Positions 1,304-61,338 of a stretch of 64,000 nucleotides of DNA are shown one piece after another. Source of the DNA: Lepidostoma basale (taxonomy: Eukaryota > Arthropoda > Insecta > Trichoptera > Lepidostomatidae); the NCBI GenBank assembly GCA_022606425.2, contig JAHDVF020000510.1, forward strand, positions 496,001 to 560,000, given 5' to 3'. The position numbers and the translations under genes are program-made. The stretch's first letter is position 1. Every line of letters starts with the position of its first letter. Below the pieces are notes generated by a model. The model had not been told where the DNA came from. It saw nothing but the letters and a program-made list of their open reading frames with translations, and did no database searches.

Positions 1304-1750
1304 GTTTTTGAATTGAAGGCTGGACATTACAAATGTGCCAAGTGTACAAAAAGTCAAAAATGAGTTACTCGTATTGCAGATATGCGTATAACGGAAAAAC
1401 AAACATTATTGTGTATAAGCATGTTCTGGTCATTTATAATATTTTGTTGCGAGACGTTTAATTTTTTTCATAATTAAAACACGGTTATATCCACTGATAA
1501 AAAAGGGGATAAAAATTAACACCTCCATATTGAATATTAACGAAAACGTCCGTTTTCTAGAAGTTTTAATATTTTATATGGGAGTGATTTCTGTGTCACA
1601 GATCGTCAGCTCTATTAAAAGAAGAAGAAGAAGAATATGGTATATTTGCTAGGAACTTCTCAAATATTATTCTACACCTTTGATAATATCCTAATAAGGA
1701 AAACATGTCGAACTATCCATGACGCCGTTTCTCTGAAGGGGTAATTCGAT
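1304..1750. other. Spacer with two small repeat fragments
   Basis: No gene is seen. Positions 1541-1590 match the end of the palindromic element at 18271-18454 (AACGTC.GTTTTCTAGAAGTTTTA). Positions 1600-1637 match the 3' end of the (GAA)n LINE at 61835-62047 (GATCGTCAG.TCTATTAAAAGAAGAAG). A TACTCGTA octamer lies at 1366-1373. Confidence 0.6.
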
Positions 1751-1753
1751 TTA

Positions 1754-1800
1754 AAGGCGGGCCACACTGTGATAAACAAGCTGGTTTGAAACCAAAATTT
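1754..1800 (+). mobile_element. Left end of a Harbinger-type MITE
   Basis: AAGGCGGGCCACACTG preceded by TTA (1751-1753) matches the terminal repeat of the complete MITE at 54283-54541. About 47 bp of that copy are missing here before GGTTTGAAACCAAAATT. I cannot find its right end. Confidence 0.6.
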
Positions 1801-2304
1801 GTATACTGAATGTTATTACTCAAACATAAACCATGTTCTAGACGTAGTAAAAACGTCGATTTTAGTAAACCATGAGTTAAACCGCGGATGTTTCTGCATA
1901 CGGTTGATAACCGAATTCGCGTTAAACAAATCGCATAAAAATAAGTAGAGGTGTATCAAATATCGGATGCGCTCGGCTGTACGACAGTATCGTCTTACAA
2001 ATGCCTCCTTTCCCAGAGGTATTCACTACAAATTAGATTTTTCATTTCCAAGTCAATAAATGTGTGGACATGCAACAGGTTTGTGAAGTTCATATTTCCC
2101 ATCTCCGCGTTCCCCCTACAATCTCGTACATTTCCTCTAGGGCTCCGTGGTACAGCAAATACAAGTGCTTCCTCTTTGCATGTGTTTAGAAAAAATATGA
2201 ATTTACGAGTATTACAAGTCATCGATTTCATGTATTTAAATTCACAATATACATACAACTATTGAATACCAAGTTTCTTTATATTCGAAGAGATGAGTTT
2301 CTCA
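1801..2304. other. Spacer, no feature recognised
   Basis: AT-rich sequence without repeats that I can match elsewhere in the window and without a convincing ORF. One TACGAGTA octamer lies at 2204-2211. Confidence 0.5.
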
Positions 2305-3178
2305 AAAACTTAAACTAATACATAATTAATGAAAGACCTGAAAGGGTTGGATGTAGATGCCAAAATGAGCGGAGTGTCAGTAAGCTGTCTCTTGTATGCG
2401 GATGACGCTATCCTTCTTGCAGACAACGAGCATGAACTACAAGTCCCGGTGAATATTATGTATGAGGTACGTATGCGAAATGATCTGATGATGAATGTTA
2501 ATAAGTCCAAGGAAATAATTTTTGAAAAAGAAGAAATCATAACAGTCTGCAACGTTAGCGTGAATGGTGAAAATTTGGAGCAAGTAGAGTTCGTGTATTT
2601 AGGTAGTATGTTTACAAAAGATGGGCGAGTGGAGACGGATATTGAAAGAAGGGTTGGGGCAGGCAACAAATGTGCACTAAATGTTGTCATCGCAAACAAA
2701 AACCTAACCAAAAAAGATAAAATGGCAGTGCACAGTGGTGTTCTGGTACCGACCCTTATGTATGGAAGCGAAGCATGGAACTGGTAAAAGAAGGATGAAA
2801 GTAGAATAAATGCAGTAGAAATGCGATCTCTTAGACTAATGTGTGGATTCTCTGTGTATAATAGTGTCGAATGAAAATATAAGAAATGAATGCGGTTGTG
2901 AATGATGGTGTTATGAACAAAATAATGAAACGATCATTAAAATGGTTTGGACACATGGAAATATGAACGAAGAAAGAATGGTAAAAAAATGTATATGTTA
3001 ACGATGTAAATGGAACCAGAAATAGAGGAAGACAGAGGAAAACGTGGCACGATCAAATAAATCAAATATTGAATGTCGGCCACGTGAGGAGTCAGAGAAA
3101 TCTACGCGCGTGCATGACACGATGTATGAATACTGAGGAAGCGAGAGAAAAAGTTTGGCAGTCCAATCTTTTACTTTG
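2305..3178 (+). mobile_element. LINE-A copy with RT motif C, tail lost
   Basis: ORF2 is open from 2329 to 2786. It reads MKDLKGLDVDAKMSGVSVS, then the catalytic motif LLYADDAILLAD, then VYLGSMFTKDGRVETDIERR (thumb/connector) and PTLMYGSEAWNW before a stop at 2785. Homology continues with stops and frameshifts through FGHME, a damaged GRPRKTW region and RACMTRC to about 3178. There it breaks off before the GETA end, so the (GTTA)n tail is missing. No TSD is visible. Confidence 0.85.
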
Positions 3179-3209
3179 GCAGTATTAACTTCTTATAATT
3201 TATTCATTA

Positions 3210-3286
3210 TTTTCATTCGACACTATCATGTACATATTTTTCACATATTCGTCTAAGAGATCTCATTTCTACTGCATTTATTCTAA
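3210..3286 (-). mobile_element. LINE-A internal fragment
   Basis: The reverse complement covers 'INAVEMRSLRRM' through 'YDSVE', with an internal gap. It lies just beyond the truncated copy on the plus strand, in the opposite orientation. Confidence 0.7.
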
Positions 3287-4123
3287 TATATATAATTATT
3301 TTATTACACTTCCTTTCAACGAATCGTAATAATGTATTATATAATAGTAAAGATCGTAAAATGGAATTATATAATTAATGGTGGCTACCTCTTTGCTAAG
3401 TGATTTTTACGAGTATATACCTTAATCATAGGTTTTTCATACCTTCTAACATATTGCTACATAGTTATTCATTGCTCTATCTGCCGAATATTTAAAATGC
3501 TACATTTATTAAAGGAACGCCCGGCATTTTACGAGATAAAATCAAAATACTACGAGTTAAAATTATTTTACCATGAAAAATAATGGTTTAATCAACCAAC
3601 TTAAACGCCACGAGATATGCCGGTTGGGAGATTACACGGCGTAAGAAGGAACCGGTTTAAGAAGAAAGCCCCGAAACGGTTTAAAAAAAAATACAAAATA
3701 CAACAGCGGCAACCTGATAAAAAGATTCTACACGAAGTAAAGGTGGTGATAAAATAGGTGATGATTAAAAATATAGTTTTGCTTAGGTGCCCTGTGCTGA
3801 ACGGATTTTTGTTTCGTTTTGGGACAGTAACAAAGCGACATATACGTTCGAAAACCAGTTACGTATACAAATGATGTCCAATCCTGTGTTAAAAACAATT
3901 TATCTATGAAAGGAATATGACATAATGGAATAAGTATTCTATTCCATAGATAACTTGACAAATACTAATAACATGTGTATTCGTATACAGACTTAAATGA
4001 AAGAATGTGCCCCACAAAAAAATTAAATGCATTTTTTTCGTATGCATATATTGTATTTGAAGTAAGCGCGTAAATAAAAGATGACCCCCTTTTTCTTCTT
4101 CTCTCCAAGCCATTTTAAATGTT
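3287..4123. other. Spacer, no feature recognised
   Basis: AT-rich sequence. I find no gene, RNA or matched repeat, apart from a TACGAGTA octamer at 3408-3415. Confidence 0.5.
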
Positions 4124-4224
4124 TGATATGAATGAAAACGTCTGTTTTCTAGTAGTTTCATTATATTTTAGATGGAATGACATGTATCGCCCTTCCAAGG
4201 CATTATCAAATGTTCATTTTATAA
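4124..4224 (+). repeat. Half of the palindromic element P1
   Basis: GAAAACGTCTGTTTTCTAG, then GGAATGACATGTATCGCCCTT and GGCATTATCAAATGTTC match one arm of the inverted repeat at 18271-18454. Only one arm is present. Confidence 0.6.
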
Positions 4225-5360
4225 TCAAATCAAATCAAATCATTTTATTTACTCAAAAGAGTCCAATAACATAGACCTAAGCCTCCGAAAACAACTTATA
4301 AAAACATTGGTGTGGAATGTTTTACTATACGGCTGCGAAACTTGGTGCCTGGGCGAAAGAGAGCGCAAAAGGCTGGAGGCATTTGTAATGTGGACCTACC
4401 GACGAATTGCCCATGTTTCATGGAGGGACCACGTTACAAATGTGGAGGTTCTCAGCAGAGTTGAAGAGAATAGGCACCTGTTGAACACCATAGCGGAGAG
4501 GCGCGCGAGATGGATTGGCCATGTGTTGCCACACGAATGGTTCCTGCATGGTGTATTGGAGGAAATGGTCGAGGGATCTATTGGCAGAGGACGACCTTGC
4601 CAGGAGTACCTAGACCAGATTTGCCGAGATATGGGCTGCGCCTCTTATGCGAAATTGAAGAGAGTTGCCGAGGACCGAGCGGAGTGGAAGAGGAGATGCG
4701 TCGCCTTGCTGCAGACCAATATTTAGATTGAGACTGGTGAAGAAGACTCAAAAGACATTACAAACAGCATAAATGTTTAAGGCATCTATTGAGTACAGGT
4801 AAAATATTATGCACATACAACATAATACCAGGAACGCATTAGATATGGTTCGATATTAGGAAGACAAGATACTTTCTAAAGTCGAAAGTATTTGTCCCCT
4901 GAACGTACCTTCACTAATATGAAAGACGTCGATCTTCGAAGAGACCGCGTTCAGTAGACTAATTATTCTTCCCACCGGTGTCACCAGAGGCAGATTGGTT
5001 CTGGAAGCCGGTAGGTAAAACAATCTGTGCTGTTACTGTCGGAGATATCTATCAGGGACAAAAATACCAACACCCTCCATCACGGCCGAGTTTTCGAAAT
5101 ATCCCCTAAAAAAATGGATTATGAGATGCCCATCTCTAAGACGCTGTAGAGAATTGTTTCCGAGCATTCTCAAAAGAAATGCCGTGAGATAGAGTCACGG
5201 ATAACTACCATACTCCGTCATGTAGAGATACCTCAGATTTTTTTTCTGAAGCCTCTCCAGCATAACGGAATATCTCCCCTCGTGAGGACTCCATATCACA
5301 GAACCACTTTCGAGTCTGTTCAGAACCAACGCTTTGTATAGGACTCTGAGCACATTGGAA
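4225..5360 (-). mobile_element. LINE-B copy, split by a LINE-C2 insertion
   Basis: The 3' end of a Jockey/CR1-like LINE lies on the minus strand. Its (TGATT)n tail is at 4225-4240, and its body resumes at 4756 after the insert. Coding homology runs from FLRYLYM-like residues to the TLES-like end, with many stops. The 5' end stops at CTGAGCACATTGG (5360), the same breakpoint as the copy ending at 57181. Confidence 0.82.
4261..4745 (+). mobile_element. LINE-C2 insertion with 10-bp TSD
   Basis: An open frame (4283-4726) reads KTLVWNVLLYGCETWCLGER, RIAHVSWRDHVTNVEVLSRV, RARWIGHVLPHEWF and GRGRPCQEYLDQICRDMG. It ends -VALLQTNI-stop, then GAAGAAG. This is the post-RT C-terminus of an RTE-like ORF2 without stops, so the insertion is fairly young. 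TSD ACTCAAAAGA lies at 4251-4260 and 4746-4755. The surrounding LINE-B copy joins perfectly when the insert is removed, as in the uninterrupted copy at 56540. Confidence 0.9.
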
Positions 5361-5957
5361 TCTCTGAATACAGTGCAATGTCATAAATTGTATTTTGGAA
5401 ATTTTCTTCTCTGTAATTAGTGGGGTTTTGGAGTTTATATTAAGCTGCATCATTACAGAACAAATATTTAAATACAAGATTGTTGTCTATGTATATTTCT
5501 AGTCATAGTAATCAGATATGTAAGCCGATTTGACGGACATGTAACGCTATATAGGTATATACTGCCCTAGTACGGCTCAGGAGCCAGAAAACGTGTTCAG
5601 ATATTTAACTTCACATTAATCTTGTGCCATTGGGCATTTCACGTTGAAATATGATAACATCTGGAGAACGCTAATAATCTTATATATCTAAGCTTAAACA
5701 ACTACGAATGTAACTAAGTTTTACTCATTTTTTAATGATGGTAATTAAAAATAATAAACAAAACCAATTTCTATAGCATGAAATTGGAACGAGCATGTCT
5801 CCCGTATGCAAGAAAATATGATTTCAAAGATTGCTCGAGACAATCTACCGAAGGGTTCCTGATCACGTACCGACCACGATGGCGATCCACTTTCCGGGAG
5901 GACAGAGATGCAAACAATAACAGGTCATCAGACCTATAAGAAGAAGTAGAAAAAGAT
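5361..5957. other. Spacer ending in a (GAA)n LINE tail
   Basis: No gene is seen from 5361 to about 5900. The sequence ACAGGTCATCAGACCTATAA followed by GAAGAAG (5920-5946) matches the 3' end of LINE-C4 (CAGGTCATACGACCTAAACT, GAAGAAG), so an old LINE-C4 end lies here. Its tail is the target of the following LINE-A insertion. Confidence 0.5.
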
Positions 5958-6620
5958 CGTAGTTGAGTTTGTGTATTTAGGTAGTATGTTTACAAGAGAT
6001 GGGAGAGTGGAGAGGGATATTGAAAGAAGGGTTGGGGCAGGCAACAAAGTGAATGGTGCACTTAAAGTTGTCATCGCAAACAAAAACCTATCCAAAAAAG
6101 CTAGAATGGCAGTGCACAATGGTGTTCTTCTACCGACCCTTATGTATGGAAGCGAAGCATGGAACTGGCAAAGGAAGGATTAAAGTAGAATAAATGCAGT
6201 AGAAATGAGATCTCTTAGACGAATGTGTGGATATTCTGTGTATGATAGAGTGTCGAATGAAAATATAAGAGGTGAATGCGGTGCGAATGATGGTGTCATG
6301 AACAAAATAATGAAAGGATCATTAAGATGGTTTGGACATATGGAAAGAATGAATGAAGAAAGAATGGTAAAAAAATTATATGTTAATGATGTAAATGGAA
6401 CCAGAAATAGAGGAAGACCGAGGAAAACGTGGCACGATCAAATAAATCAAATATTGAATGTCGGCCATGTGAGGAGTCAGAGAAATCGACGCGCGTGCAT
6501 GACACGATGTATGAATGTTGAGGAAGCGAGAGAAATATGTCAGGAAAGAAAGGTGTGGCAGTCCATTCTTTCTGCCTACCCCTTCGGGGAGACGGCGTGA
6601 TGGTTAGTTAGTTAGTTAGT
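5958..6620 (+). mobile_element. LINE-A insertion, nearly intact C-terminus, 11-bp TSD
   Basis: From 5962 to 6600 a single frame with one nonsense change (TAA at 6181, GAA expected) encodes the LINE-A C-terminal 210 residues. It contains VYLGSMFTRDGRVERDIERR, MAVHNGVLLPTLMYGSEAWN, EMRSLRRMCGYSVYDRVSN, SLRWFGHMERMNEERMVKK, RNRGRPRKTWHDQINQIL and SAYPFGETA-stop. The stop lies within 3 bases of the (GTTA)n tail. TSD TAGAAAAAGAT is at 5947-5957 and 6621-6631. The element is 5'-truncated just upstream of the thumb region. Confidence 0.93.
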
Positions 6621-6689
6621 TAGAAAAAGATGAATACTATAGTGATTTTGTTGAGAAAAGTCACAGTATAAGAATTTTGGTGGGAAGGT

Positions 6690-6900
6690 TATAAACAAAC
6701 ACAAACAAACACAAACACAAACAAAAACAAACAAACCATCACGCCGTTTCCCCGCAGGGTTTGGCAGCGAGAATGGACAGCCACACTACTCTATCCTGGC
6801 ACACATCTCTAGCTTCCTCCATATTCATACAGCGAGTCATACACGCACGTCGATTCTTCCGTCTTCTAGCATGACCAACCGATCGGATAAGCAACGGTAG
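6690..6900 (-). mobile_element. LINE-A 3' fragment with (TTTG)n-type tail
   Basis: The minus strand reads RRACMTRCMNMEEARDVCQD and VVWLSILAAKPCGETA-stop. Its tail is an irregular CAAA/CAAACA microsatellite (6690-6735) instead of (GTTA)n. This marks a sub-family with a GTTTG tail, also seen at 37201 and 52407. Confidence 0.8.
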
Positions 6901-7094
6901 AAATATGAAGTTACTCTCGGCTTCACTGGACCCTCTACAGCTAATATCAGGTCGTGATTTTTGATCTTCGTTGACTGATAGACTCAAATCCTTTTACAGG
7001 TTACCACTATTAATATTCGTCTCTAGGCACTAAAATGGTTTGCCCATTAATAACAAACAAAATGTAACAAACAATAAAAATACGGGGTTATTAT

Positions 7095-7272
7095 CAAATC
7101 AAATCGAATCAGTTTATTTTCTCAAAAGATATTACAAACAACAATTACAGTTTTAGGCCTCTATTGAGAACAGGTAAAACATAAAAAATATATGTTACCA
7201 GGAACGCATGAGAGATGGTTCGACATTAGGAATACAAGATACTCTCCAAAGTCAATAGTATTTGTCTTCTGA
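7095..7272 (-). mobile_element. LINE-B 3' end
   Basis: The (TGATT)n tail at 7095-7108 is followed by the LINE-B 3' UTR and final codons up to 'GTCTTCTGAA'. It is truncated and joined to a LINE-A piece. Confidence 0.8.
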
Positions 7273-7392
7273 AGTAGGAACAATCGGAGAGCGTGCATGT
7301 CACGATGTGTGAATGTGAAAGAGGCGTGAATGATATGTCAGGATAGAGCAGAGTGTCGGTACATCCTCTCTGCCTACTCCTGCGAGTGATTA
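7273..7392 (+). mobile_element. LINE-A fragment, diverged
   Basis: GAGCGTGCATGTCACGATGT and ATATGTCAGGATAGAGCAGA with CTCTCTGCCTACTCC correspond to 'RACMSRCVNVKEA..CQDRAE..ILSAYS'. The final GETA and tail are lost. Confidence 0.7.
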
Positions 7393-7671: not shown

Positions 7672-8155
7672 AACAAACTATCACGCCGTTTCCCAGCAGG
7701 GGTAGGCAGAGAATGGACCGCCACACTACTCTATCCTGGCACACCTCTCTAGATTCCTCCATATTCATACATACACGCACGTTGATTCTTCCGACTTCTA
7801 ACATGGCCAACCTTAAATTTTTTAATAATATAGTCATGCCATGTGTTCCTCCGTCTGCCTCGACTCCATACTCCATTTACATCATTAACGTATACTTTCT
7901 TAACCATTCTTTCTCCATCCATGCGCTCCATATCCGAACAAACGCAGCGATCCTTTCATAATTTTGTTCATAATACCTTCTTCCGCTCTACATTCCTGTC
8001 TTATACGAGTATCGGCATTTGAGATTCTGTCGTATATCGTTCTACTATACACACACGTCTTAGAGACCTCATCTCTACCGCATTTATTCTGCTCTCATCC
8101 TTCTTCTGCCAGTTCCATGCTTAGGAACCAGAACTCCATTGTGAACGGCCGTTTT
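7672..8155 (-). mobile_element. LINE-A copy carrying a TACGAGTA insertion
   Basis: Minus-strand LINE-A end: MERMDGERMVKKVYVNDVNG, RGRRRNTWHDYIIKKFKVGH and a frameshifted RSILCLPLLGN end before AAACAAAC. Upstream it covers MRSLRRVC and a damaged YDRISNA region. At 8004-8011 it carries 6 extra bases compared with the sister copy near 36885. A sister of the 36358 copy by sequence. Confidence 0.85.
8004..8011. other. TA-CGAG-TA hexamer gain in LINE-A
   Basis: The sister copy (reverse complement of about 36865-36895) has no insert: its segment between CGCTCTACATTCCT and GCATTTGA is exactly 6 bp shorter. An ancestral TATA becomes TATACGAGTA. Read as a mariner excision scar. Confidence 0.65.
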
Positions 8156-8712
8156 TTCAAATCAAATCAAATCAGTATACGAGTATTTTCTCAAAAGATT
8201 TTACAAACAAAAATTATAGTTTAAGGCATCTATTGAGAACAGGTAAAACATAAAAATATATAATACCAGGAACGCGATGGTTCGACATTAGGAATACAAG
8301 ATACTCTCCAAAGTCAAGAGTATTTGTCTTCTGAACGTACTTTCACGAATATGAAAGACATCGATCTCCGAAGCGATTATGTTCAGCAATTTGATTGCTC
8401 TCCCCACCGGTATCACCAGAGGCAGGTTGGTTCTGCATGCTGGGAGATAAAACAGTCTGTGCTGACGCTGTCGAAGATAACCATCCGGAACATAAAGATG
8501 GATAGCCTCCAAGATGACGGAATTCTCAAAGAATCCCCTGATAAGTCTGAAGAAATGGGTAAGTGTGCACCCATTCCTTTTTATTTGTAAACTATTGGTC
8601 CACAGCATGCCCAAGAGGAATGCAGTGGGATAAAGCCACGGATAGCTACCAAACTCTCTCATGTAGAGATATCTCAGAAATCTTTTCTGAACCCTCTCCA
8701 ACATGAGCGAGT
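8156..8712 (-). mobile_element. LINE-B copy
   Basis: The tail TCAAATCAAATCAAATC (8157-8173) is followed by a minus-strand ORF (8288-8740). It reads MLERVQKRFLRYLYMREFGS, YPWLYPTAFLLGMLWTNSLQ, DGYLRQRQHRLFYLPACRTN and ESTFRRQILLTLESILYS. This is the conserved C-terminal tail of Jockey/CR1-like ORF2. The copy is 5'-truncated and ends next to an ATT run. Confidence 0.88.
8178..8185. other. TA-CGAG-TA hexamer gain in a LINE-B tail
   Basis: LINE-B at 7107-7128 reads ATCAGTTTATTTTCTCAAAA. This copy reads ATCAGTA-TACGAGTA-TTTTCTC, 6 bp longer at a TA site. Confidence 0.7.
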
Positions 8713-15815: not shown

Positions 15816-16029
15816 AGATTAGATTTAAGCATTAAGCAGAAGATCTTTATAACGCAATGTGAAAGGCTACCGCCATTGACGCACTGCTAGACAACGCCTG
15901 GAAATGTCACTCCAATTTATATGCTAACTTGGACCAGTTTTTGTTTTATACAACATTTTGAATGTACGAGTATACAAACACTTGTAGACAAATACTGGAT
16001 TTCATTTATCCATTGCGGGTTATCAATTC

Positions 16030-18270: not shown

Positions 18271-18454
18271 TATAAATGAAAACGTCTGTCTTCTAGGAGT
18301 TTTAAGTTTTTCATGGAATTACATGTTTCGCCCTTTAAAGCCATTATCTAATGCTTAAAACGAAACATTTGATAATGTCTTAGAAGGGCAAAACATGTCA
18401 TTCCATAAAAAAAACTTAATAAAACTCCTAGAAGACAGACGTTTTCATTTATAT
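18271..18454. repeat. Palindromic element P1
   Basis: Two arms of about 88 bp (ATATAAATGAAAACGTCTGT ... and its complement at the right end) around a short centre with ACGAAACATTTGATAATG. The arms differ by scattered substitutions and a few indels. Single arms or parts occur at 1541, 4124, 32850 and 56485. Probably a fold-back MITE. Confidence 0.7.
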
Positions 18455-23782: not shown

Positions 23783-24656
23783 CGAAGAACGTTTTTGAAT
23801 CGAATTTTTACCGAATGCACAAATTAGTTTTCGAATCGCATTCTTTTGTTTTGAACGCGTTATCATCACCAATACCTCATATTTTATTTAAAAAAATTAG
23901 AACGTTTTTGAATCGACTTTTTACCGAATGCACAAATTTGTTTTCGAATCGCATTATTTTGTTTCGAACGCGTGATAATCACTTTTTTCAGATTTTATTA
24001 AAAAAATTAGAACGTTTTTGAATTGAATTTTCACCGAATGCACAAATTTTGTTTTCGAATTGCGTTCTTTTGTTTCGAACGCGTGATAATCACCAATACC
24101 GCGTATTTTATATTAAAAAAAATAGAACATTTTTTAATCGACTTTTTACCGAATGAACAAATTTGTTTTCGAATCGCGTTCTTTTGTTTCGAACGCGTGA
24201 TAATCACCGATACCTCATATTTTATTTAAAAATTTAGAACGTTTTTGAATCTTATTTTCACTGAATGCACAAATTTGTTTTCGAATCGCGTTCTTTTGTT
24301 TCGAACACGTGCTAATCACCACTACCGAGTATTTTATATAAAAAAAAATAGAACGCTTTTGAATCGAATTTTCGCACATATTCGTTTTCAAATCGCGTTA
24401 TTTTGTTTCGAACGCGTGATAATCACCAATACCGCGTATTTTATAATAATAAATTAGAACGCTTTTAAATCGAACTTTTGCTGAATGCACATACTCGTAT
24501 TCGTTTTCGAATCGCGTTCTTTTGTTTTGGAAGAGGTGCTAATCACCAATACCGCGTATTTTATTAAAAAATTAGAACGTTTTTGAATCGAATTTTCGCC
24601 GAATGCACATATTCGTTTTCGAATCGCGTTCTTGTGTTTAGAACGTGCGGCAACCA
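23783..24656. repeat. Satellite array, about 8 units of 112 bp
   Basis: Tandem units begin AGAACGTTTTTGAATCGA at about 23787, 23899, 24010, 24123, 24236, 24350, 24457 and 24575 (spacing 107-118). Each contains CCGAATGCACA, TTCGAATCGCGTTCTTTTGT and TTCGAACGCGTGATAATCAC. The units differ by substitutions and small indels. The frames that run through it are a by-product of the repeat and not genes. Unit 7 has an extra 6 bp (24492-24499). Confidence 0.9.
24492..24499. other. TA-CTCG-TA hexamer gain in satellite unit 7
   Basis: Units 6 and 8 read GCACATATTCGTTTT. Unit 7 reads GCACA-TACTCGTA-TTCGTTTT. Exactly TA is replaced by TACTCGTA. Confidence 0.75.
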
Positions 24657-26459: not shown

Positions 26460-26850
26460 AATTTATTTAATTTCATTTATTTATTTAAAATACTCGTATA
26501 TCTAAAGCATTACAGAATTTTTTTCCAATACACTAAAGATACAAGTTAAAGATACACAATAATAAGTAATACATAATAGATTAATAAAAAGAGCGAGAAA
26601 CATAAGATGCATGACAAATTAATAAAATAAATATACCAAACAATTATAATAAAGATAGTACTTCCCTCAGATGAGAAAATACGTCAAAATCCGAGGTGAT
26701 ACGATTAAGCAAAGATATTGCTGTACCTACCAGCATAACCATTGGCAGGTTGGTTCTGCATCGTGGGAGAAAAAACAATCTATGGCCCTTTGTCGAAGAT
26801 AATTAATTACCAGGCACGAACAGACCCACATCTCTCAGGATTTCTGAGTT
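26460..26850 (-). mobile_element. Old LINE-B-like fragment
   Basis: GGCAGGTTGGTTCTGCATCG and GAGAAAAAACAATCTATGG (26744-26800) match the RTNLPLV.. region of LINE-B at 8410-8460, but the rest is strongly diverged. A TACTCGTA octamer is at 26491-26498. Confidence 0.5.
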
Positions 26851-27321
26851 GTGTATACAACCGTCTATCAGTCGAAAGAATGTTCGGATGATTGGTGATG
26901 AACAAAATTTAGGAAAATCGACTGTGCACACGATTTTAAAAGAACATTTGAAGTTGAAAAAAATTATGAAAACACTGATTGTCCGCCAGTTTCTGACCCA
27001 TAATGCGGTCTCTGTTATTGATCACCCTCCCTATTCACCAGATTTAGCCCCTGACGACTTCTTTTTGTTCCCGAAATTTAAAAGGTAATGCGGGGGCGGC
27101 ACTGGGATGACGTATGGACGATTAAACGTGAAACGACAAAGCAGCTGAAGAGCCTGACTCCTGAAGACTTCCAGGAATGTTTTGAACAATGGAAACGGAG
27201 GTGCGACAAGTGCATTTCTACAAATATAGAGCATTTTAAAGGGAATAAGATTGATCTACCCTAAATATTGAAAAATAAAATTACAAAAAAAATAGATCGC
27301 GTATTTATTAGACAGGCCTCG
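26851..27321 (+). pseudogene. Broken mariner transposon with CGAG right end
   Basis: Transposase remnants read SRKNVRMIGDEQNLGKSTVH (DNA-binding part), then the catalytic-domain signature HPPYSPDLAPDDFFLFPKFK (27022-27087). A frameshift follows, then LKSLTPEDFQECFEQWKRRC and NIEHFKGNKIDLP-stop. The long middle of the protein, including the first catalytic aspartate, is missing. The right end reads, inward from 27321, CGAGGCCTGTCTAATAAATA and is followed by TA (27322-27323). Removing it restores the LINE-C7 sequence CC-TA-TTCCCG on that side. The left end is lost at the join to the LINE-B-like piece. Confidence 0.82.
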
Positions 27322-27323
27322 TA

Positions 27324-29290: not shown

Positions 29291-29415
29291 ATCATATATA
29301 TGTATGTATGAATATGTATTCGCATTAGTGTATGTATGTATTTCTATCTATATATGTACACAGATATGTATTTACGTTTATGTATGTATATGTATGTATA
29401 CTCGTATGTATAATA
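29285..29415. repeat. TATG/ATGT microsatellite
   Basis: Imperfect TATGTATG repeats, interrupted near the end by TACTCGTA (29399-29406). Confidence 0.8.
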
Positions 29416-32845: not shown

Positions 32846-33451
32846 CCATAAATTTTAATAAAACTTCTAGAAAACAGTTTTCATTCGTATTATTTATTTA
32901 ACGTGGAGTATCATATCTTTGTTTAAGAAACAACAGATGATTAAAATATATAATCTTACGTGTGTATTTATAATTCCTCAGTACAGCCCTGGTTCGGAAG
33001 ATAAACAACCCGCCCCCAACATGGAAGAGAAAGTTTTGGCAGAACCGAGCGTAAGGAAATATTTGGTTAGAATTATTGCTTTGGGAGACACGTAATTAAT
33101 CGTAAGAACTGTGACGCGGACACAAGGCAAATATTACACTCATACTTGTTCACAGCATCCATGATGAATAAGATTATAGCCATGTTTGCCGCGATAACCG
33201 TTGGAACACTGCGCCAAATGCAGACAATCTAAATTTAAGATTTTCTTCTAAATTCGCCTTCACTTTGTGTTGTGGATTCATATTTGAATAAATATAGTTA
33301 CACTTTGCATTACAACACTTTTTATTTTTACTGAACTCAGATATGTTTCGGTTACAAGTAACCTTTATCAATGTACGAGTATACAATTTTAACAATTAAA
33401 TAAAACAGAGCGGTCACTTACATACTGACTGCAGATCAAGTATGTATAAAA
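32846..33451. other. Spacer with a P1-arm fragment
   Basis: 32850-32930 (minus) carries AAAACTTCTAGAAAACAG and AGTATCATATCTTTGTTTAA, related to P1 and its flank at 18470. 33330-33375 has ATATGTTTCGGTTACAAGTA, a TTTCGG-type repeat. No gene is seen. Confidence 0.5.
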
Positions 33452-34696: not shown

Positions 34697-34892
34697 ATTA
34701 AATTGTAAATAAAACACTTGTTTTTCACCACTTGAGTATTATATTTTACACGACTAGTTTCGGAAGCTACAGATGCTTCCATCTACAGGTTTTAATATAA
34801 ACTCAGATGGAAGCATCTGTAGCTTCCGAAACTAGTCGTGTAAAATATAATACTCAAGTGGTGAAAAACAAGTGTTTTATTTACAATTTAAT
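34697..34892. repeat. Perfect 88-bp palindrome P2
   Basis: 34697-34784 is the exact reverse complement of 34805-34892 with a 20-bp centre (ACAGGTTTTAATATAAACTC). I compared all 88 positions by eye and found no mismatch. The arm contains CGACTAGTTTCGGAAGCTAC. No TSD outside the arms is obvious. Confidence 0.9.
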
Positions 34893-39229: not shown

Positions 39230-39944
39230 CTATGGAATTCCACAGTGTTAATGCCTTAGCGTTCAATAAACTGTTATATTATAATATCATAATTTTCTAC
39301 GAGTACTAAACACTTTTTGAGAATGTCGCGACAGCTGTTTCGCCAACAGATGTAACTCGCTAGCGAACTCCAAAATAAAAAAAATCACTTTTTAAATCAT
39401 TGATTTTTCAAGAATTCCTTAGAGATTCTAACACTTAGAACAACAGTCTAATTCAAATAGACACACACCAGCCCACGCTTTATATTAGATGACGAAAAGG
39501 GTTGCTCATTCTTTGGTGTCTATTCAACATTCCCAAAAACTATTTTTTTCCTATCGGGGATAAATTCTACAAATTCGATTTATGGCCGGCTAATTACAGG
39601 AAATACCCCTAAGTACGACGCAATGTTTTTTTAACTGATACTTTTATTATTAAATGCCTCAACGAAGTTTGTCCAGTTTCGATCCGGTGAACAAAATCAA
39701 ACATTTAACGTTTTTTCGTTACTCAATCAATTATATACTGGACCAATCAACGACCGAGGGCAAAAAGTGCCGCGGATGTGGAGTTTAGCGGAAATCGAAC
39801 AAAAAACTAATTGATTAAAATAGTTGAGTTATAGTGCCAACACTGAAGCCGTAATTTAAATTCTTCTTTACTAGTTTCAATCTAAGATATTTGTTTGCAG
39901 CGAAGAGTAACAATTTCGTTGGTTCTTGGGATAAATAAATTAGA
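39230..39944. other. Spacer with GCGACAGCTGTTTCG core
   Basis: GTCGCGACAGCTGTTTCGCC at 39327. Otherwise no gene or clear repeat is seen. TACGAGTA at 39298-39305. Confidence 0.45.
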
Positions 39945-45052: not shown

Positions 45053-45590
45053 AAAATTATCTATTAAATAAAGTAAATATCATAGACATTAACACTATTT
45101 TAATGTGTTTTTTTCATTTTTAATATGTACGAGTATTGTATACCTCTAAAAAATAATGGTTGGAACCAGAACTAAATTGTGAACGATTATTTAGATATTT
45201 TTGATATATCTTTGACACTCGATAACTGTTCATATAATACGACACCCATCACTAGACCGAGGTCGGTTCGGATAGCTTTCTCACAAGCTGAGATAAGCGA
45301 TCGTATAATCCGGGAGTAAAACTCGAATTATCTCTATCGGAGATAAAGCGTAACAGAGATGTATCAATTTATACATATTATCTGGACCGAATACGAGGCA
45401 AACAACACGGTACTATTTATTATATCGAAATAGAAGTCAATAAGGCAATACACGATAACGTAAGATAACCATATAATATCATTTACACCATAACTAAAAA
45501 CCAAGTTAATTTATGATAGACATCACGAAAAAATGACAGTGCGTTTAATGAACGCATACCAATTATTTATACTTCTGCAGTAATTTCGTT
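45053..45590. other. Spacer with a small LINE-A scrap
   Basis: 45158-45185 (minus) resembles the GVLVPT region (GGAACCAGAACTAAATTGTG). Otherwise no gene. TACGAGTA at 45128-45135. Confidence 0.4.
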
Positions 45591-46108: not shown

Positions 46109-46570
46109 TTTAGTTTAATTTTAGCGAGCTGCCGAAACCGGTAGCCATAAACCTAGTGGAATTCAAGTAAATAAATATTACAAAAGAATTTTTAATATAT
46201 ATTTTTTTTCATTATTTAAAAAAATATAGCACTGGTTACAATACAGCACTCCTCCACGAGTACGGATCACAGGCGGAGAGTATCTGGACCATTGTGCAAT
46301 GACAAGCAATGGGTCAATTAGGCCCAATCCAAAGGGAGCTGCCATTAACGCATGATTAATGGGTAGCGCCGATCCCGATGCAAGTGCAACAATAGCCGGG
46401 CGGATAGAACGCCCATTCGGATCTCTATTAGTAGACAATGCCGGCGAGATTGGGAGTATAAATTCCTTGTTTTATATTAACTGACCATGATTATGATGTA
46501 ATCGAAATGATTCAAGAGTAACAGTAACTACCGAGCTGCTGGTTGCAACTTATGGCCTTGAAACTACTCG
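46109..46570. other. Spacer, no feature recognised
   Basis: GC is moderately raised at 46250-46440. The minus-strand 86-codon frame (46438-46178) has no domain that I recognise. Confidence 0.45.
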
Positions 46571-46905
46571 TATAACATCAACCAAACAAAGTGTCGAAAT
46601 CTGCGAGAGATCCAAAGAGCCATGTTAGGAATAAGCCTTAGAGACATAGTCAGAAACACCAACGACATCATCTACCGTGTAGCGACTGTAAAATGGCTAT
46701 AGACTGGTCACGTAGACAGAAGTTCAGACGAAAAATTGTCAATAAGACTGCTGAAGAGGATACCATGGATACCAGGGACCGCAACTACGGTGGAAGGATG
46801 ACCTGAACCGACACGCAGAACCTGGATGAAATCTGCAAGAGTCAGAATGGCGTGGAGGCAAATGGTTGAGGCCTTTGTACAGAAGACGGGAATAGGCTGA
46901 AGAAG
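46571..46905 (+). mobile_element. LINE-C7 copy with (GAA)n tail
   Basis: TKCRNLREIQRAMLGISLRD, IVRNTNDIIYRVATVKWL, TGHVDRSSDEKLSIRLLKRI, PW, a frameshift, RPQLRWKDDLNRHA-like and MVEAFVQKTGIG-stop, GAAGAAGAGGAA. It extends farther 5' than the other C7 copies. Confidence 0.83.
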
Positions 46906-49610: not shown

Positions 49611-49955
49611 TCATAATATTCCCGTGGTTATTTATAGAATGATACGAACCGAGTCATAATTAACTTTTAAATTAATTAATACTTTTCGTAGGACAGGCAA
49701 ATATAACCTTAATATAATCAAATGATTTTTCTGAAATCTCTTGATGGATATTCATTTTAAATAATAATTAAATAAAACGATGTTTTTAACTACTTCCACT
49801 TTGTCTTTATTTCGACAGCGACCGGTTTCGCCAGGCTCGCTGGCATCGACAGACTGGTGACACTATTGCAAATCGAGTCCTTTATATACTCGTACATACA
49901 GATCAGGGGTGGTTAACATGATTCTATACAAAAATAATCTTAAATATTTATGTAA
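49611..49955. other. Spacer with inverted-repeat-type core
   Basis: GCGACCGGTTTCGCCAGGCT (49817) is a palindromic-core repeat of the CGAAAC kind. 49898-49945 is the reverse of the sequence flanking LINE-C3 at 30858-30905 and shows that copy's empty target site. Confidence 0.55.
49887..49894. other. TA-CTCG-TA hexamer gain
   Basis: The paralogue at 30893-30912 reads CTGTATGTATATGAAGG. The reverse complement here reads CTGTATG-TACGAGTA-TATAAAGG, exactly 6 bp longer at a TA. Confidence 0.72.
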
Positions 49956-55742: not shown

Positions 55743-55789
55743 CATTTCATAATAACAATACTTTATTTTCCAAACGTAAAACGTTTGTA

Positions 55790-55845
55790 CTGCTTTGATG
55801 TTAAAATTATATAAGTTTGACGTTTATATAAAGAATTCGTGGTCG
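55790..55845 (+). mobile_element. Element S 5'-region fragment
   Basis: ACGTTTGTACTG.TTTG.TGTT and AAAATTATATAAGTTTGACG, TTATATAAAGAATT match 22768-22832 of the full S copy. It ends where SINE-T begins. Confidence 0.65.
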
Positions 55846-55847
55846 AC

Positions 55848-56045
55848 CTTCGTGGCAGAGTGGTAAGAGCTCTGACTACCATACCGAAGGTTCCGGGTTC
55901 GATTCCAGGCGCTGGCAGTGTGATTGTCACACTGTCTTTGGTCTGGTGTAGAATTCTCGTGACAATAATATGGCGATATATTAGCTACATATACTCGTAT
56001 AAGCTCTATCACATGTCATGAGAATCAGTACATTAGTTAAAAACA
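55848..56045 (+). mobile_element. SINE-T copy T5, variant 3' end
   Basis: TCGACCTTCGTGGCAGAGTG (A box), GGTTCGATTCC (B box) and body as T3. After TGAGAATCAGTACATTAGTT it ends with AAAACAAATTGTATACAGTA instead of the GATTCAACAAAATAAT end. T6 (61526) shares this second type. TACTCGTA (55992-55999) with extra bases interrupts the body. Confidence 0.87.
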
Positions 56046-56089
56046 AATTGTATACAGTAATTGGGTTGAAGCGACGTGTTGTAGACAAA

Positions 56090-56258
56090 AAAAAGAATAG
56101 GTAGGCAGAAATAATGGACTGTCACACTTTAACCGATGCGACACTCCATCCTTCTCTTTTCGCCCCTGCGGGAGACGCGGTGTGATGGGTTGCGAACCTC
56201 ATCGCCACCAATAGGCATCTCCCGCGCACACTTCTATCGTCCAACGACTACAAAATAG
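56090..56258 (-). mobile_element. Element S, minus copy, tail lost
   Basis: The reverse complement has GTGTGCGCGGGAGATGCCTA, TTGGTGGCGATGAGGTTCGC, AACCCATCACACCGCGTCTC, GCAGGGGCGAAAAGAGAAGG, ATGGAGTGTCGCATCGGTTA and AAGTGTGACAGTCCATTATT, then the LINE-A-like end is cut short. The stem CGCGGGAGA/TCTCCCGC is intact. Confidence 0.83.
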
Positions 56259-56539
56259 TCACTCAGAATTTCATATGATATCGGTTGATTTTTATATTAA
56301 TTTTTAGGTAGAAGTGAATTGTTAAAGTGAGAAAAAATGATATAAAATTAACAAAATATAAATTAAAATGCTTAAATAATAAAAATATAAATACTGTGTA
56401 TAATAATAATAATATTTATATCTAATTCGAAAAACATATTTGTTTCTATAACAATGATATAAGACTTCATATTAAATATATAATACGAAAGAAAACGTCT
56501 GTTTTATTCTATATTTTTGATAACGATATTTGATTATCA
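56259..56539. other. AT-rich spacer
   Basis: 56485-56510 resembles the end of P1 (GAAAACGTCTGTTTT). No gene. Confidence 0.45.
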
Positions 56540-57181
56540 ATCAAATCAAATCAGTTTATTAACTCAAAAGACATTACAAACAGGAAAATGTTTAAGGCAT
56601 CTATTGAGTACAGGTAAAATATTATAAAAATACAACAAAGTACCAGGAACGCATTAGAGATGGTTAGACATTAGGAAGACAACATACTTTCTAAAGTCAA
56701 GAGTATTTGTCCCCTGAACGTACCTTCACTAATATAAAAGACGTCGATCTCCGAGGAGACCGCGTTCAGCAGACTAATTGCTCTTCCCACCGGTGTCACC
56801 AGAGGCAGATTGGTTCTGGTGGCCGGTTGGTAAAACAATCTGTGCTGTCGCTGTCGGAGAAATCTATCAGGGACAAAAAGACCAACACCCTCTAGCACAG
56901 CCGAGTTCTCGAAATATCCCCTGATTAATTTAAAGAAATGGGTTATGAGATGCCCATCTCTTCAAAGCTGTAAAGAATTGGTTCCGAGCATTCCTAAAAG
57001 AAATGCCGTGGGATAGAGCCACGGATAACTACCATACTCCCTCATGTAGAGATACCTCAGAAATTTTTTTTGAACTCTCTCCAGCATAACGGAATATCTC
57101 GCCTCGTGAGGACTCCATATCACAGAACCACTTTCGAGTCTGCTCCGAACCAACGCGTTGTATAGGACTCTGAGCACATTG
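56540..57181 (-). mobile_element. LINE-B copy, young
   Basis: (TGATT)n tail at 56540-56553. The minus strand reads MLRVLYNALVRSRLESGSVI, WSPHEARYSVMLERVQKKFL, RYLYMREYGSYPWLYPTAFL, LGMLGTNSLQL-stop, RDGHLITHFFKLIRGYFENS, VLEGVGLFVPDRFLRQRQHR, EGTFRGQILLTLESMLSS. The single stop (CGA to TGA at about 56972) is a CpG-type change; the copy at 60402 has arginine. The 5' end is at CTGAGCACATTGG, as in 5360. Confidence 0.93.
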
Positions 57182-57199
57182 GGTTATATTGCTTATAAT

Positions 57200-57275
57200 A
57201 TATTATATTGCTCACAGGAGGAGCAACACTCTGGAGAACAGGCCATATAGGTCTACAACAAGGAAGAAGAAGAAC
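57200..57275 (+). mobile_element. LINE-C3 end fragment
   Basis: GCTCACAGGAGGAGCAACAC, TCTGGAGAACAGGCCATATA and GTCTACAACAAGGAAGAAGA match the C3 end. Confidence 0.78.
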
Positions 57276-57824
57276 AGAAGAAGAAGATATTTGATGATGC
57301 CTTAAAAAGGTGAAACATTTCATTCGCATAAAATATAGATAATTAAACTTTTAGTAAATTTAAAAAATATATTCTCAATTCAAAATCAGTATCGAAAAAC
57401 TGGGTCACCCAATAAATCGAGGAAACAAGTCTCGATGATTAGGTAGAACATAATACAATATTTCGTCTATTATACCTTTCCGTATACCTGTCAAGTCCAC
57501 GATTATCGGCGCCGGCGATAGGTACGTCCCCCACCCCACCACATCCCCACCCTCATGCCCCACGGCCGAAGGTCCGTGTGAAACTGGTCTGCGGCGTGAC
57601 AAGGGTAGGTTTGTGTGGAACATACCTTATATCTTGCCTTGTATCAAGTGTAATAGAAACAAGGGCTGTTACATATGATTGATCATTTTTTTATTAAATC
57701 AAAACATTCTATCTTTCAATTTTTAGCTTATTTTGAGAGAGCAGACGCTTTCGACTATCAAAAGAGATCGGATCCCACCAAATTCCACCCAAGACAGATA
57801 GTCAAGGAGACGCCATACAAGAAT
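57276..57824. other. Spacer, no gene
   Basis: AAAAAGGTGAAACATTTCAT (57304) is a CGAAACATG-like repeat piece. 57490-57600 is GC-richer without a match. Confidence 0.45.
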
Positions 57825-58255
57825 GGCGTTACATGGAATGGCTCCAAATTATATATCCGAACTCTGTATAACGGACAGCCTAAATACAAGAAATCCACAC
57901 TTCGCTCGGCGAACTCCTCGGCAATAGGAAGATTAGTTGAGCCAAAGCGTTACCCTAGTACAAATTTCGGGGATCGAGCGTTTGCGGTAGCCAGTCCATC
58001 AGCTTGGAACAATCTTCCTTCACACCTCAGATTCATAAATGATCCGACAGATTCAGATCAAACCCATATTTTTCATATTTCATACCCAATTTAAAACTTG
58101 CATATTTTGTTATATTATAATTTCTAATCGATCGCGAATATCAATCAGATGCAGCGTTCAGATTTAGATTTAAAACACGTCTTAATGCGCCCTTGAGGTG
58201 ATTATATCACAACAACGGCGCTTTAAAAGTTAGCAAATTATTATTATTATTAAGA
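57825..58255 (+). mobile_element. LINE-D copy with (ATT)n tail
   Basis: MAPNYISELCITD in one frame, then YKKSTLRSANSSAIGRLVEP, KRYPSTNFGDRAFAVASPSA, WNNLPSHLRFINDPTDS and HIFHISYPI-stop, 3' UTR and ATT tail. One or two frameshifts. Confidence 0.88.
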
Positions 58256-58565
58256 AGAACCGACCCCGAGTAAATGGGACAAGGCTAGGAAGAAGAAGAC
58301 GAAGAAAAAAACATCTTAAAATAGCAGAACTGAAAACATTGTGACCCATCATGGGTATAAAACCTTAACCTAACCTAAACAAAGAAGACATACGCAGAAC
58401 CAGAAGAATTGATGACACAATGAGATGGAGTAGGCAGAGAAGACTGACCAAGAGAATATGGACCAAGCGAGGATTCTCAAAATCATGTTGCACGATACTC
58501 GTCAACCACTAGGATGACCACCAAAGAAATTGAGAGAAAGGTGTACGTCTCCACCAGAAAACCAA
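58256..58565 (+). mobile_element. Two LINE-C-type scraps
   Basis: 58258-58303 ends in GGCTAGGAAGAAGAAGACGA, a (GAA)n LINE end. 58380-58565 reads DIRRTRRIDDTMRWSRQRRL and TKRIWTKRGFSKSCCTILVN, a very worn C3/C9 relative. Confidence 0.5.
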
Positions 58566-58871
58566 ATTTAATATATATTGTCTAAACATATCACAAGATC
58601 TACATGAACAAGAAGATATATACAGATAAATAATTGGGCCAAACAGTGTCAAATGTCCTTCTCTGGACCGTGACAAGCGTAAATCCAATCGCGTTTTATT
58701 TTTCTCGACATGTTTCGAATGGTTTTAAATCGTTCTACCGACAATCGCTGTTTGTTGCCCTAAATAAATCATTTAATAAATAAAATAATTACAACAATAT
58801 TAATTTCACATTGGGACAATTCAATTCCCAGAATAAAACACAGTAGAAATAATTTATAAATCCTTATTGTA

Positions 58872-59946
58872 TCGGGTTTTTCATTAAGAGCGCTCGAACT
58901 TTGAAATGAAATAAAACAACCTGTCTAAGTGACATTCCCACAATTTTTTTAAAATTTAAATGAACATTCAATGACATATATGTATGTATGGAATATAATT
59001 TCGGCTAAATGGCCACCATGTCAAATCAAATGGATCTGGGGCGGTGGCGTGCTTTGGGAGAGGCCTACATTCAGCAGTGGATGACAGACGGCTGACGATG
59101 ATGATGATGGCCACCGTGGCTTCGCTGCAGGTAGTGTATCCTGGTGGTCAGAGGTTTTTCTATAGATATCTGTCAAATTTGACAAGAATACTTATTTATT
59201 CTTGAAATTTCACCATGAAACGCTACACGGTTCAACAATGTGTTGAAATTGTTAATTTTTTTTTATCAAAATCAGTGCATTGTTCGCGAAATTATGGCAT
59301 TCATGGCCGTCATGCAGAGTCCACAATACGTCGTTTAACGGATTAATTTGAGATAAACTTAAGGCGTTATCTTTCTAGTAGGTACTAGCCAAGTTAACTA
59401 ACACATGTTATAAATAATTCTAGGTTCTTGCACTCAGTTTATACATACTTAATTTTGAATTGCTATTACATAATTTTGGTTAGTTTATATCGTTCTCCCG
59501 ATGATAAAGGTGCAAGCCTTCGAAACATGTCGTGAAAAATAAACTCAAAATTAGAAAAATGTGTTTTAATTCATAAAAATTCGGATTCATTTGATACAAC
59601 CGGATCGGTGGTTGATGAAGCAGTTTTTTTTTTAAAGGAACATAGAAGTTCCCGCCACATACTCGAGGCTGTTATAGGGCGTAGCGGCGCCCTTTTATCA
59701 GCCTCGCTCGTACACTCCCTAGGCCTGTCCCCGGTCCATCCGGGACTTGCATTTAAATACGGCAACAACAAGGGGGTGCCAGACCACATTTAATCTACTC
59801 AATCTCACTTCTATGCTCCGCTGTACTTTATGAAGCAGTGCTTGTACGTCAAAGAAACGCAGGATGAAAAAAATTTGTGACAATATCACTTAGACAGGTT
59901 GTTTTATTTCACTTCAAAATTCGAGCGCTCTTAATAAAAAACCCTT
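58872..59946. mobile_element. Mariner-like element M3, TA-flanked, with inserts
   Basis: TA at 58870-58871 and 59947-59948. Terminal inverted repeats of about 65 bp: GGGTTTTTCATTAAGAGCGC at the left and, read inward at the right, GGGTTTTTTATTAAGAGCGC, continuing through AACAACCTGTCTAAGTGA. The left half contains MKRYTVQQCVEIVNFFLSKS (N-terminus of M1's remnant). After about 59345 M1's right half is replaced by unrelated sequence, including a CGAAACATGTCG repeat (59518). A LINE-C6 scrap is inserted at 59018. Confidence 0.75.
59018..59106 (+). mobile_element. LINE-C6 end with (GAT)n tail inserted in M3
   Basis: GGTGGCGTGCTTTGGGAGAG, GCCTACATTCAGCAGTGGAT, GACGGCTGACGATGATGATG: the WRALGEAYIQQWMTDG-stop end. 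ATGGCCACC is duplicated at 59009-59017 and 59107-59115. M1 (38155-38200) shows the uninterrupted target region. Confidence 0.82.
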
Positions 59947-60401
59947 TATAATATTTTTCTTTGCCCTTTTCGCAGCCCTCGCAACAACGCCGCCTATAAT
60001 AATAATGTCCGATGTCAACGGCTAGAATTCGTAGATCCTGGAGTGTATTGCATTTGACGTGGGCGCTTTTGGATTCTGGTACGTAGGTACCCACTTTTAT
60101 ATGGGGTAGAATTAATACAAGAAATTTACCCAATTTCTGGAAAATTAATACGACTTTCATTATCATGATAAAAATTGTTATAAATATTATAAAACGTGGG
60201 TTTCACTCGTGAATTAAGTGTGGGAATAGCTCGTACTAATTAAGATTTTAATTAATTTGAGGTAGGTAAGACCCTTATCAAATTTACACCCGTAATGTTT
60301 TCAAGGCCGCTTCAAAAAGAAAAGGTGATAATCATTTATTATTTTATTACAGGAAGAGTGAATTAATTAGAAATAATATTTTTTTTGTCAAATGGACAAC
60401 T
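59947..60401. other. Spacer, no feature recognised
   Basis: No gene or repeat match. Confidence 0.5.
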
Positions 60402-60917
60402 TTATCAAATCAAATCAAATCAGTTTATTAACTCAAAAGACATTACAAACAGGAAAATGTTTAAGGCATCTATTGAGTACAGGTAAAATATTATAAAAAT
60501 ACAACAAAGTACCAGGAACGCATTAGAGATGGTTCGACATTAGGAAGACAACATACTTTCTAAAGTCAAGAGTATTTGTCCCCTGAACGTACCTTCACTA
60601 ATATAAAAGACGTCGATCTCCGAGGAGACCGCGTTCAGCAGACTAATTGCTCTTCCCACCGGTGTCACCAGAGGCAGATTGGTTCTGGTGGCCGGTTGGT
60701 AAAACAATATGTGCTGTCGCTGTCGGAGAAATCTATCAGGGACAAAAAGACCAACACCCTCTAGCACGGCCGAGTTCTCGAAATATCCCCTGATTAATTT
60801 AAAGAAATGGGTTATGAGATGCCCATCTCTTCGAAGCTGTAAAGAATTGGTTCCGAGCATTCCTAAAAGAAATGCCGTGGGATAGAGCCACGGATAACTA
60901 CCATACTCCCTCATGTA
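60402..60917 (-). mobile_element. LINE-B copy, open C-terminus
   Basis: Almost identical to 56540-57055. The minus-strand frame of 124 codons (60914-60540) is open from MREYGSYPWLYPTAFLLGML to EGTFRGQILLTLESMLSS-stop. It is 5'-truncated at CTCATGTAGAGAC, where LINE-A begins. Confidence 0.93.
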
Positions 60918-61338
60918 GAGACATGTGTCAAAATCTAAAGTGATGGTTTTCGAGAAAGAATAATGTATGACGATTTGTGATATAAGTGCGATGGGGGAGA
61001 AATTGGAGTAAGTTACCTAATTTACGTATCTGGGAAGCATGTTTACAAGAGACGGAAAAATGGAGAAAGACATCGAAAGAAGGGTTGGTGCTGAGAATAA
61101 AATAAATGGCGCACTCAAAGTCATTACTGCAAATAGAAATATATCCACAGAAGCAAAGATGGCAGTATACGAGTACAATGGAGTTCTAGTGCCAACCCTC
61201 GTGTATGGAAGTGAAGCTGGAGCTGGCAAAAGAAGGATGAAAGCAGGATAAACGCCGTAGAAATGAGATCACTAAGAATAATGTGCCGGAAAACGTTAAG
61301 TATGGAGATCGTTCGGACATATGGAAAGATATGCGGAT
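60918..61338 (+). mobile_element. LINE-A fragment
   Basis: CVKI-KVMVFEKE, CDISAMGEKLE, YVSGKHVYKRRKNGE-type frame, then MFTRDGKMEKDIERRVGAEN, KINGALKVITANRNISTEAK, MAVYEYNGVLVPTLVYGSEA. The YEY residues come from a 6-bp gain at 61168. It ends about 61338 after FGHMER without a tail. Confidence 0.85.
61168..61175. other. TA-CGAG-TA hexamer gain in LINE-A
   Basis: Other copies read GATGGCAGTACACAATGG (for example 16410). Here GATGGCAGTA-TACGAGTA-CAATGG is 6 bp longer, adding two codons (MAVHNG becomes MAVYEYNG). Confidence 0.7.

Follow-up and report, generated by a model that had tools for sequence, protein, structure and literature searches.

A six-base TA-CGAG-TA scar repeated across the genome of Lepidostoma basale, and its probable origin in the excision of CGAG-ended mariners

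Why should a single eight-base word recur so often along a stretch of insect DNA? We addressed this question in 64,000 nucleotides from Lepidostoma basale (Trichoptera; assembly GCA_022606425.2, contig JAHDVF020000510.1, positions 496,001 to 560,000; hereafter, the window), in which the word in question is the octamer TACGAGTA, or TACTCGTA in the opposite orientation, i.e. CGAG between two TA dinucleotides. A preliminary description proposed that these octamers are footprints left behind by excised mariner transposons whose ends begin with CGAG. Our results support this origin, and we consider it very probable that the octamers are excision scars of CGAG-ended mariners, written mainly by a young family found by searching the genome; the old, diverged family present in the window was probably not their main source.

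Excess of the octamer and six-base gains at TA

The octamer occurs 16 times in the window, nine in forward and seven in reverse orientation, and all the sites previously claimed are present. The expectation is 1.35 from 100 dinucleotide shuffles, none of which reached 16, or 1.0–1.5 from Markov models of orders 1 to 4 and 4.2 from order 5, so the excess over chance is borne out; permutations of the inner four bases appear only 0–4 times each. When similar flanks were collapsed, the number of independent contexts relative to chance (14 vs 1.3) was highest for TACGAGTA among the 1,817 octamers with a count of at least 7, and in a ranking by Poisson p this octamer came second, behind the simple repeat AGAAGAAG. 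The sites are the following, with sister standing for a similar copy of the surrounding DNA and L numbers for genomic stretches from outside the window:

1366..1373, reverse strand: octamer, presumed scar, no sister copy in the window
2204..2211, forward strand: octamer, presumed scar, no sister
3408..3415, forward strand: octamer, presumed scar, no sister
8004..8011, forward strand: scar within a repeat copy; sisters have TA and are shorter by exactly 6 bp, among them an L002 sister, 94% identical, without the 6 bp
8178..8185, forward strand: scar; sisters have TA at the site and are shorter by exactly 6 bp
15965..15972, forward strand: scar; sister at 16318-16259 and an L015 copy (GTATAC) 6 bp shorter; classed as 'other' in the strict test
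24492..24499, reverse strand: scar in a tandem array whose remaining units are 6 bp shorter
26491..26498, reverse strand: octamer, presumed scar, no sister
29399..29406, reverse strand: octamer breaking a TATG-rich simple repeat; simple-repeat matches only, no usable sister
33374..33381, forward strand: scar; L011 sister with TA, 6 bp shorter
39298..39305, forward strand: octamer, presumed scar, no sister
45128..45135, forward strand: octamer, presumed scar, no sister
46565..46572, reverse strand: scar; L015 sister with TA, 6 bp shorter
49887..49894, reverse strand: scar; sister at 30909-30852 (93% identical over 58 bp) with TA, 6 bp shorter; no sister in the stricter test
55992..55999, reverse strand: octamer, uninformative; sisters lack 17 bp at the site
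61168..61175, forward strand: scar in a repeat copy; 97% identical sister 6 bp shorter, with CA and not TA

The tandem array (23786-24640) consists of units of about 113 bp, one of which bears the scar.

The excess extends to the whole genome, as the preliminary description had anticipated in proposing a genome-wide count against controls. The octamer occurs 122,244 times, evenly on both strands (61,181 forward and 61,063 reverse; p 0.74), against 12,163 occurrences of the reversed word, 9,479 of the TA-flanked permutation TAGAGCTA and 12,944 of ATCGAGAT, which keeps CGAG without TA; there are, then, about 110,000 octamers in excess. Likewise, a sample of 17 spread genomic stretches outside the window (166 kb, L001-L017) contains 20 octamers for 3.35 expected. 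With 250 octamers per Mb the window lies above the genome-wide density of 159 per Mb. No two of 40 further sites, on contig C1, share similar 30-bp flanks. Spacing among 100 forward sites of this contig is near random, with three gaps below 100 bp for 0.9 expected, and in one genomic stretch (L100) two octamers are adjacent. Local hopping was considered as a cause of clustering and dropped, as these 100 sites are not significantly clustered. In the window and sample together, we also observed that TACAAGTA (17 vs 7–10 expected) and TACGAGTG (10 vs 3–4) are mildly over-represented neighbours of the octamer, and that TATGAGTA is absent (0 vs 7–12 expected).

Evidence for a scar also comes from sister copies. 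We evaluated 76 octamers, 36 from the window and sample and 40 from contig C1 with only their 30-bp flanks, together with 600 random other TANNNNTA sites that were not all-A/T and whose flanks were not of low complexity; sisters were sought in a pool of 230 kb and fitted to the sequence with or without the six bases removed. A sister was found for 26 octamers, being exactly six bases shorter for 13, of equal length for two and neither for 11, whereas among the 203 control sites with a sister the corresponding numbers were 0, 135 and 68 (Fisher p 1.9e-14). The octamers therefore show, in 13 of 26 cases vs 0 of 203 controls, the gain of end bases plus TA over an empty site that marks a transposon excision. 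TA stands at the join in 12 of the 13 shorter sisters, the exception being 61168.

A scan for gaps between paralogues in the same 230 kb agrees with this result. It retrieved 64 distinct 6-bp insertion sites, eight of which are TACGAG at TA, so that such gains are not equally common for unrelated hexamers. There were 13 gains of the form TA-X-TA, including the eight with CGAG, and any other TA-X-TA insertion was found at two sites at most. Other hexamers that recur (GGAACC/TGGAAC and CTGTCG, for instance) lie at matching places of one repeat family, and recurrent hexamers without CGAG were mostly seen against a single shorter sister. Stretch L005 holds two repeat copies that differ by few substitutions and one larger gap; one has the octamer and the other reads TATATA. 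The five shorter sisters reported before (for 8004, 8178, 24492, 49887 and 61168) all exist, and further genomic DNA together with the window added exact 6-bp gains at 15965, 33374 and 46565; only the claim of TA in their place needs correction for 61168, whose sisters read CA (one AA), so that a substitution must be assumed as well.

Two CGAG-ended mariner families

Translated search finds in the window only one mariner, with these features:

26690..27321 (left limit approximate), forward strand: decayed, frame-shifted mariner remnant of an old CGAG family, with right end ...CCTCG
27298..27321, reverse strand: terminal inverted repeat CGAGGCCTGTCTAATAAATACGCG of the remnant
27322..27323, no strand: flanking TA, adjoining the CTCG at 27318-27321

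The CGAG end placed at 27321 by the preliminary description is thus present and followed by TA. In an initial Pfam scan the broken remnant matched no mariner; relatives in PDB and in protein databases did match. No mariner relatives were found in the collections viral_contigs and genome_contigs.

Searching the genome with the transposase of a relative (P0001) uncovered a young family. Out of 19,013 first-look candidates, 113 copies were scored, with values from 413.2 to 416.8 bits (about 70 at exactly 414.4), and in most of them a frame of 372 codons is open; six fetched copies are 99.3–100% identical, with a mean pairwise difference of 0.33%, although the family may include more diverged members, because these six were drawn from the score list. 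Two of the copies are located as follows:

L105:18-1343: young mariner copy
L106:30-1355: young mariner copy

A copy spans about 1,326 bp including both TAs, has CGAGGTCTGTTCAAAAAGTATCGCG at both ends, and fits what is expected of a mariner, a length near 1.3 kb with inverted end repeats of some 28 bp; its own 40–42-bp inverted ends are 90–95% alike. The six fetched copies have the end word CGAGGTCTGTTCAAAAAGTATCGCGAATTTT, from which L104 departs by one or two mismatches, and are bordered by TA. When translated, L105 and L106 give an apparently intact 353-aa frame with the motifs TGDE and HDNAPAH and, 34 residues later, a D, i.e. a DD34D triad. The transposase matches PF01359 (Transposase_1, 6e-19) and PF17906 (Mos1-type helix-turn-helix, 5e-7), and aligns to Mos1 (3hos) with E 1e-48 over residues 4-345. 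TA is duplicated in all six full copies and in exact register at 33 of 40 further ends; at the other seven it is absent, mutated or displaced by one base.

Ends within two mismatches of the young pattern number 3,455, vs 0 for the reversed control, which corresponds to roughly 1,730 copies with two ends each. The first 100 exact matches listed form 39 pairs, 37 of them spaced by 1,316–1,327 bp and two by less, with 22 ends remaining single; the true number of copies may therefore exceed 1,730, and not every copy is whole.

Members of the old family, to which the remnant belongs, end in CGAGGTCTGTCC(A/T)(A/T)TAAATACGCG, have TA on both sides and bear internal deletions (L019-L021). Scored copies are 82–94% identical to the query copies, and ends within two mismatches of the pattern number 422 vs 23 in the control. 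The first 11 end bases are common to both families and, as the preliminary description supposed, mariners of this genome do begin with CGAG. Many internally deleted copies were seen among L018-L021. Among matches to the 31-bp ends of the old family that passed an E-value cut, identity is 97–100% vs 88–94% inside, as if diverged copies had stayed mobile, although such a cut favours good ends. No other CGAG family appeared in a 230-kb scan for TA-flanked inverted-repeat elements, which was swamped by long palindromes.

We then compared the flanks of ends and scars. Positions -3, -2 and -1 are A in 60%, T in 64% and A in 78% of 45 young ends, and A in 57%, T in 51% and A in 65% of 152 scar sides; for all TAs of the window and sample the three values are 37%. 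There is no detectable difference between young ends and scars (chi-square p 0.97, 0.25 and 0.11). In contrast, 40 ends of the old family and the scars differ at -2 (p 0.008) and -1 (p 0.024) and not at -3 (p 0.51), values uncorrected for six tests. A left/right difference at -2, seen with 36 scars, was gone with 76.

Formation of the scar and comparison with known footprints

A scar of this kind could arise in few steps. Insertion would duplicate TA, giving TA-CGAG...CTCG-TA; the transposase would then excise the element while the terminal CGAG stays on one or both flanks, and the host would join these flanks to produce TA-CGAG-TA, six bases beyond the empty TA. With less certainty, the 3' overhangs of both flanks are likely to anneal as 5'-CGAG/3'-GAGC, through C:G, tandem G.A and A.G, and G:C pairs. 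When they lie between C and G, tandem G.A pairs are unusually stable. Replication of the mismatched duplex would yield TACGAGTA or TACTCGTA with equal chance, matching the observed strand balance. Alternatively, a 3-nt CGA overhang could pair one base out of register via the same G.A pair and, after a 1-nt fill-in, give the same product, so that cuts three or four nucleotides inside the element both fit.

Other repair products would look different. Filling in three bases on each side would leave TACGATCGTA, which occurs 379 times vs 422 for the control and is not enriched, and filling in four on each side would leave TACGAGCTCGTA, slightly enriched at 42 vs 6 (both are palindromes, counted once per site). 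Neither is abundant and, as far as the tested words show, four bases stay behind, almost always once. A Tc1-like footprint of two plus two bases (TACGCGTA; one in the window, none in the sample) and a mixed repair product (TACTAGTA; none and one) were rejected, and footprints of three and of five bases were dropped after counts in the window and sample. The scar is thus longer than the two or three end bases that mariners usually leave between TAs, as already pointed out in the preliminary description.

The literature describes close parallels and also differences. In mariner elements and Sleeping Beauty the cut on the non-transferred strand lies two or three bases within the transposon, and the footprint of Sleeping Beauty is the same as its overhang (PMC7827188, PMC2642840, PMC4505599). 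Like the scar formation proposed here, Mos1 and Sleeping Beauty proceed through a staggered cut, a 3' overhang and end joining to TA, few end bases and TA, but their overhang and footprint have three bases and not four (PMC4505599, PMC7827188, PMC2874221). The human Hsmar2 has ends that begin with CGAGGG and its rebuilt transposase leaves non-canonical footprints, although the passages available describe no CGAG scar (PMC3770610). Stowaway, a miniature inverted-repeat transposable element (MITE) of Triticeae, leaves natural footprints with few end bases between TA repeats, as here; those described are a handful of several types at one gene, whereas here a uniform scar occurs genome-wide (PMC1925063).

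As for the young element itself, its closest known matches include Rpmar57 of Rhodnius prolixus, a deleted mariner of 918 bp and 17 copies in the 'drosophila' subfamily, whose terminal inverted repeat CGAGGTCTGTTCAAAAAGTATCACGAATTTTG differs at one position from CGAGGTCTGTTCAAAAAGTATCGCGAATTTTG of the young family, while Rpmar1 and Rpmar6 resemble it in their full length of about 1.3 kb (PMC4678618). Against the 17 copies of Rpmar57, L. basale has roughly 1,730 copies that are nearly identical, and some 110,000 scars. By its terminal repeat only, the young family resembles the 'drosophila' subfamily, and with its Rpmar57-like ends it may still be active or may have entered recently through horizontal transfer. 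Searching the literature for the repeat words gave no match besides Rpmar57. CGAG ends are found in families of the vertumnana, irritans and drosophila subfamilies in the Rhodnius table (PMC4678618). The words 'footprint' and 'excision' are absent from the main text of that paper and from that of a Drosophila mariner survey (PMC4161770), and none of the literature matches listed, which comprised titles and abstract starts with most subscription papers outside the search, reports the octamer as a mariner footprint. A literature search for sheared tandem G.A pairs in the CGAG context turned up no apt paper.

Source of the scars and what they may record

Several observations weigh against young CGAG mariners as the authors of the scars. 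Excision is deduced from the sequence of one assembly, 50 of the 76 octamer sites have no sister, and the 11 of 26 classed as 'other' show no clean gain. Two inverted sister copies, L012:2630 and L012:4896, are about 80% identical and both carry the octamer, so some octamers are old or repeat-borne and not all are recent or independent. The flanks of scars are somewhat less sharp than those of young elements, in a profile that is blurred by the one tenth or so of octamers expected by chance, and with samples this small the agreement between both sets means only that no difference was detected. There are about 64 scars per resident young copy, a surprisingly high number. Regarding repair, the enriched four-plus-four product amounts to 42 sites only; TACGATA, which the published cuts predict, shows no excess in the window (6 vs 8.3) or in the sample (14 vs 17–20); and a DNA energy ranking with ViennaRNA, which apparently has no special term for tandem G.A, favours the proposed pairing only slightly, with CGAG 10th of 220 mismatched tetramers.

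The best surviving alternative keeps CGAG mariners as the origin of the scars, accumulated slowly and mainly from the older family of the window or from several extinct CGAG families. The old family does have CGAG ends and TA duplications, the divergence of its copies would allow a long time for build-up, and octamers shared by sisters about 80% identical would fit. Nevertheless, its ends are few and its flanks, unlike those of the young family, depart from the scars at -2 and -1. Moreover, one-mismatch octamers are not in excess in the window and sample (88 vs 118–140 expected), a point of little weight, as the counts of control words vary between 0.77 and 1.26 times their expectation. We favour the young family over the window's own as main source, and regard an old or extinct main source as unlikely; a minority of scars would stem from the older family and from other CGAG mariners, if any. 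The lack of a one-mismatch cloud fits young scars only weakly, with controls that vary by about a quarter, and one-mismatch neighbours were discarded as a clock, since the Markov expectation is too noisy.

A quite improbable alternative is that the hexamer is added at TA without a completed insertion, by abortive or hit-and-run transposase events or by joining of end fragments. Such events would leave identical scars and would accommodate their very high ratio to resident copies, but ordinary excision already explains the sequence, the TA and the target preference, and we know of no mariner step of this kind. Selection on TACGAGTA as a functional DNA motif, with which the lack of decayed one-mismatch versions would agree, is very hard to reconcile with 6-bp gains inside repeat copies and a tandem array, with the near random spacing along contig C1 and with the 10 of 16 window sites that lie in repeats, which cover 53% of the window. 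Finally, chance or a repeat family carrying the octamer, for which the two L012 copies would speak, can be practically dismissed given the 14 independent contexts in the window and the lack of any similar flank pair among the 40 further sites.

If young CGAG mariners wrote most of the scars, the 110,000 or so in excess would stand for about as many cycles of insertion and excision in the ancestry of this genome. At a lepidopteran mutation rate of 2.9e-9, the 0.33% divergence of the selected young copies would represent about 0.6 million generations; for 1,730 copies to generate 110,000 scars in that span, each would have to be excised about 1e-4 times per generation. By its parts the young element is an ordinary mariner, and it is the four-base uniform scar and its number that are new to us: footprints are normally studied few at a time, and here a single type is repeated some 110,000 times in one animal genome, beside a source element that probably still works. 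Repeat annotation would be expected to miss these scars because they are six bases long. They could be used to count how often a mariner has jumped, to measure germline excision and its repair outcomes, to chart target preference at tens of thousands of sites that elements have left, and to date the invasion of a family whose activity is reflected only in small part by the copies present today. As a tentative and rather doubtful extension, CGAG might serve as a built-in sealing signal and for this reason form the end of many mariner subfamilies; mariners could then jump at very high rates with little damage, and the more than 100,000 uniform scars would be an odometer of transposition in one lineage.

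Two other observations concern mobile DNA of the window. TA-flanked inverted repeats with at least 24 perfect end bases, 170–180 bp apart, occur at 34706-34883 and 18271-18453 and are candidates for hairpin-like MITEs. The window also holds a frame of a long interspersed nuclear element (LINE), 19 of whose 62 relatives are named and come from Plutella, Phthorimaea, Pectinophora, Cydia, Amyelois, Eumeta and Parnassius, all of them Lepidoptera.

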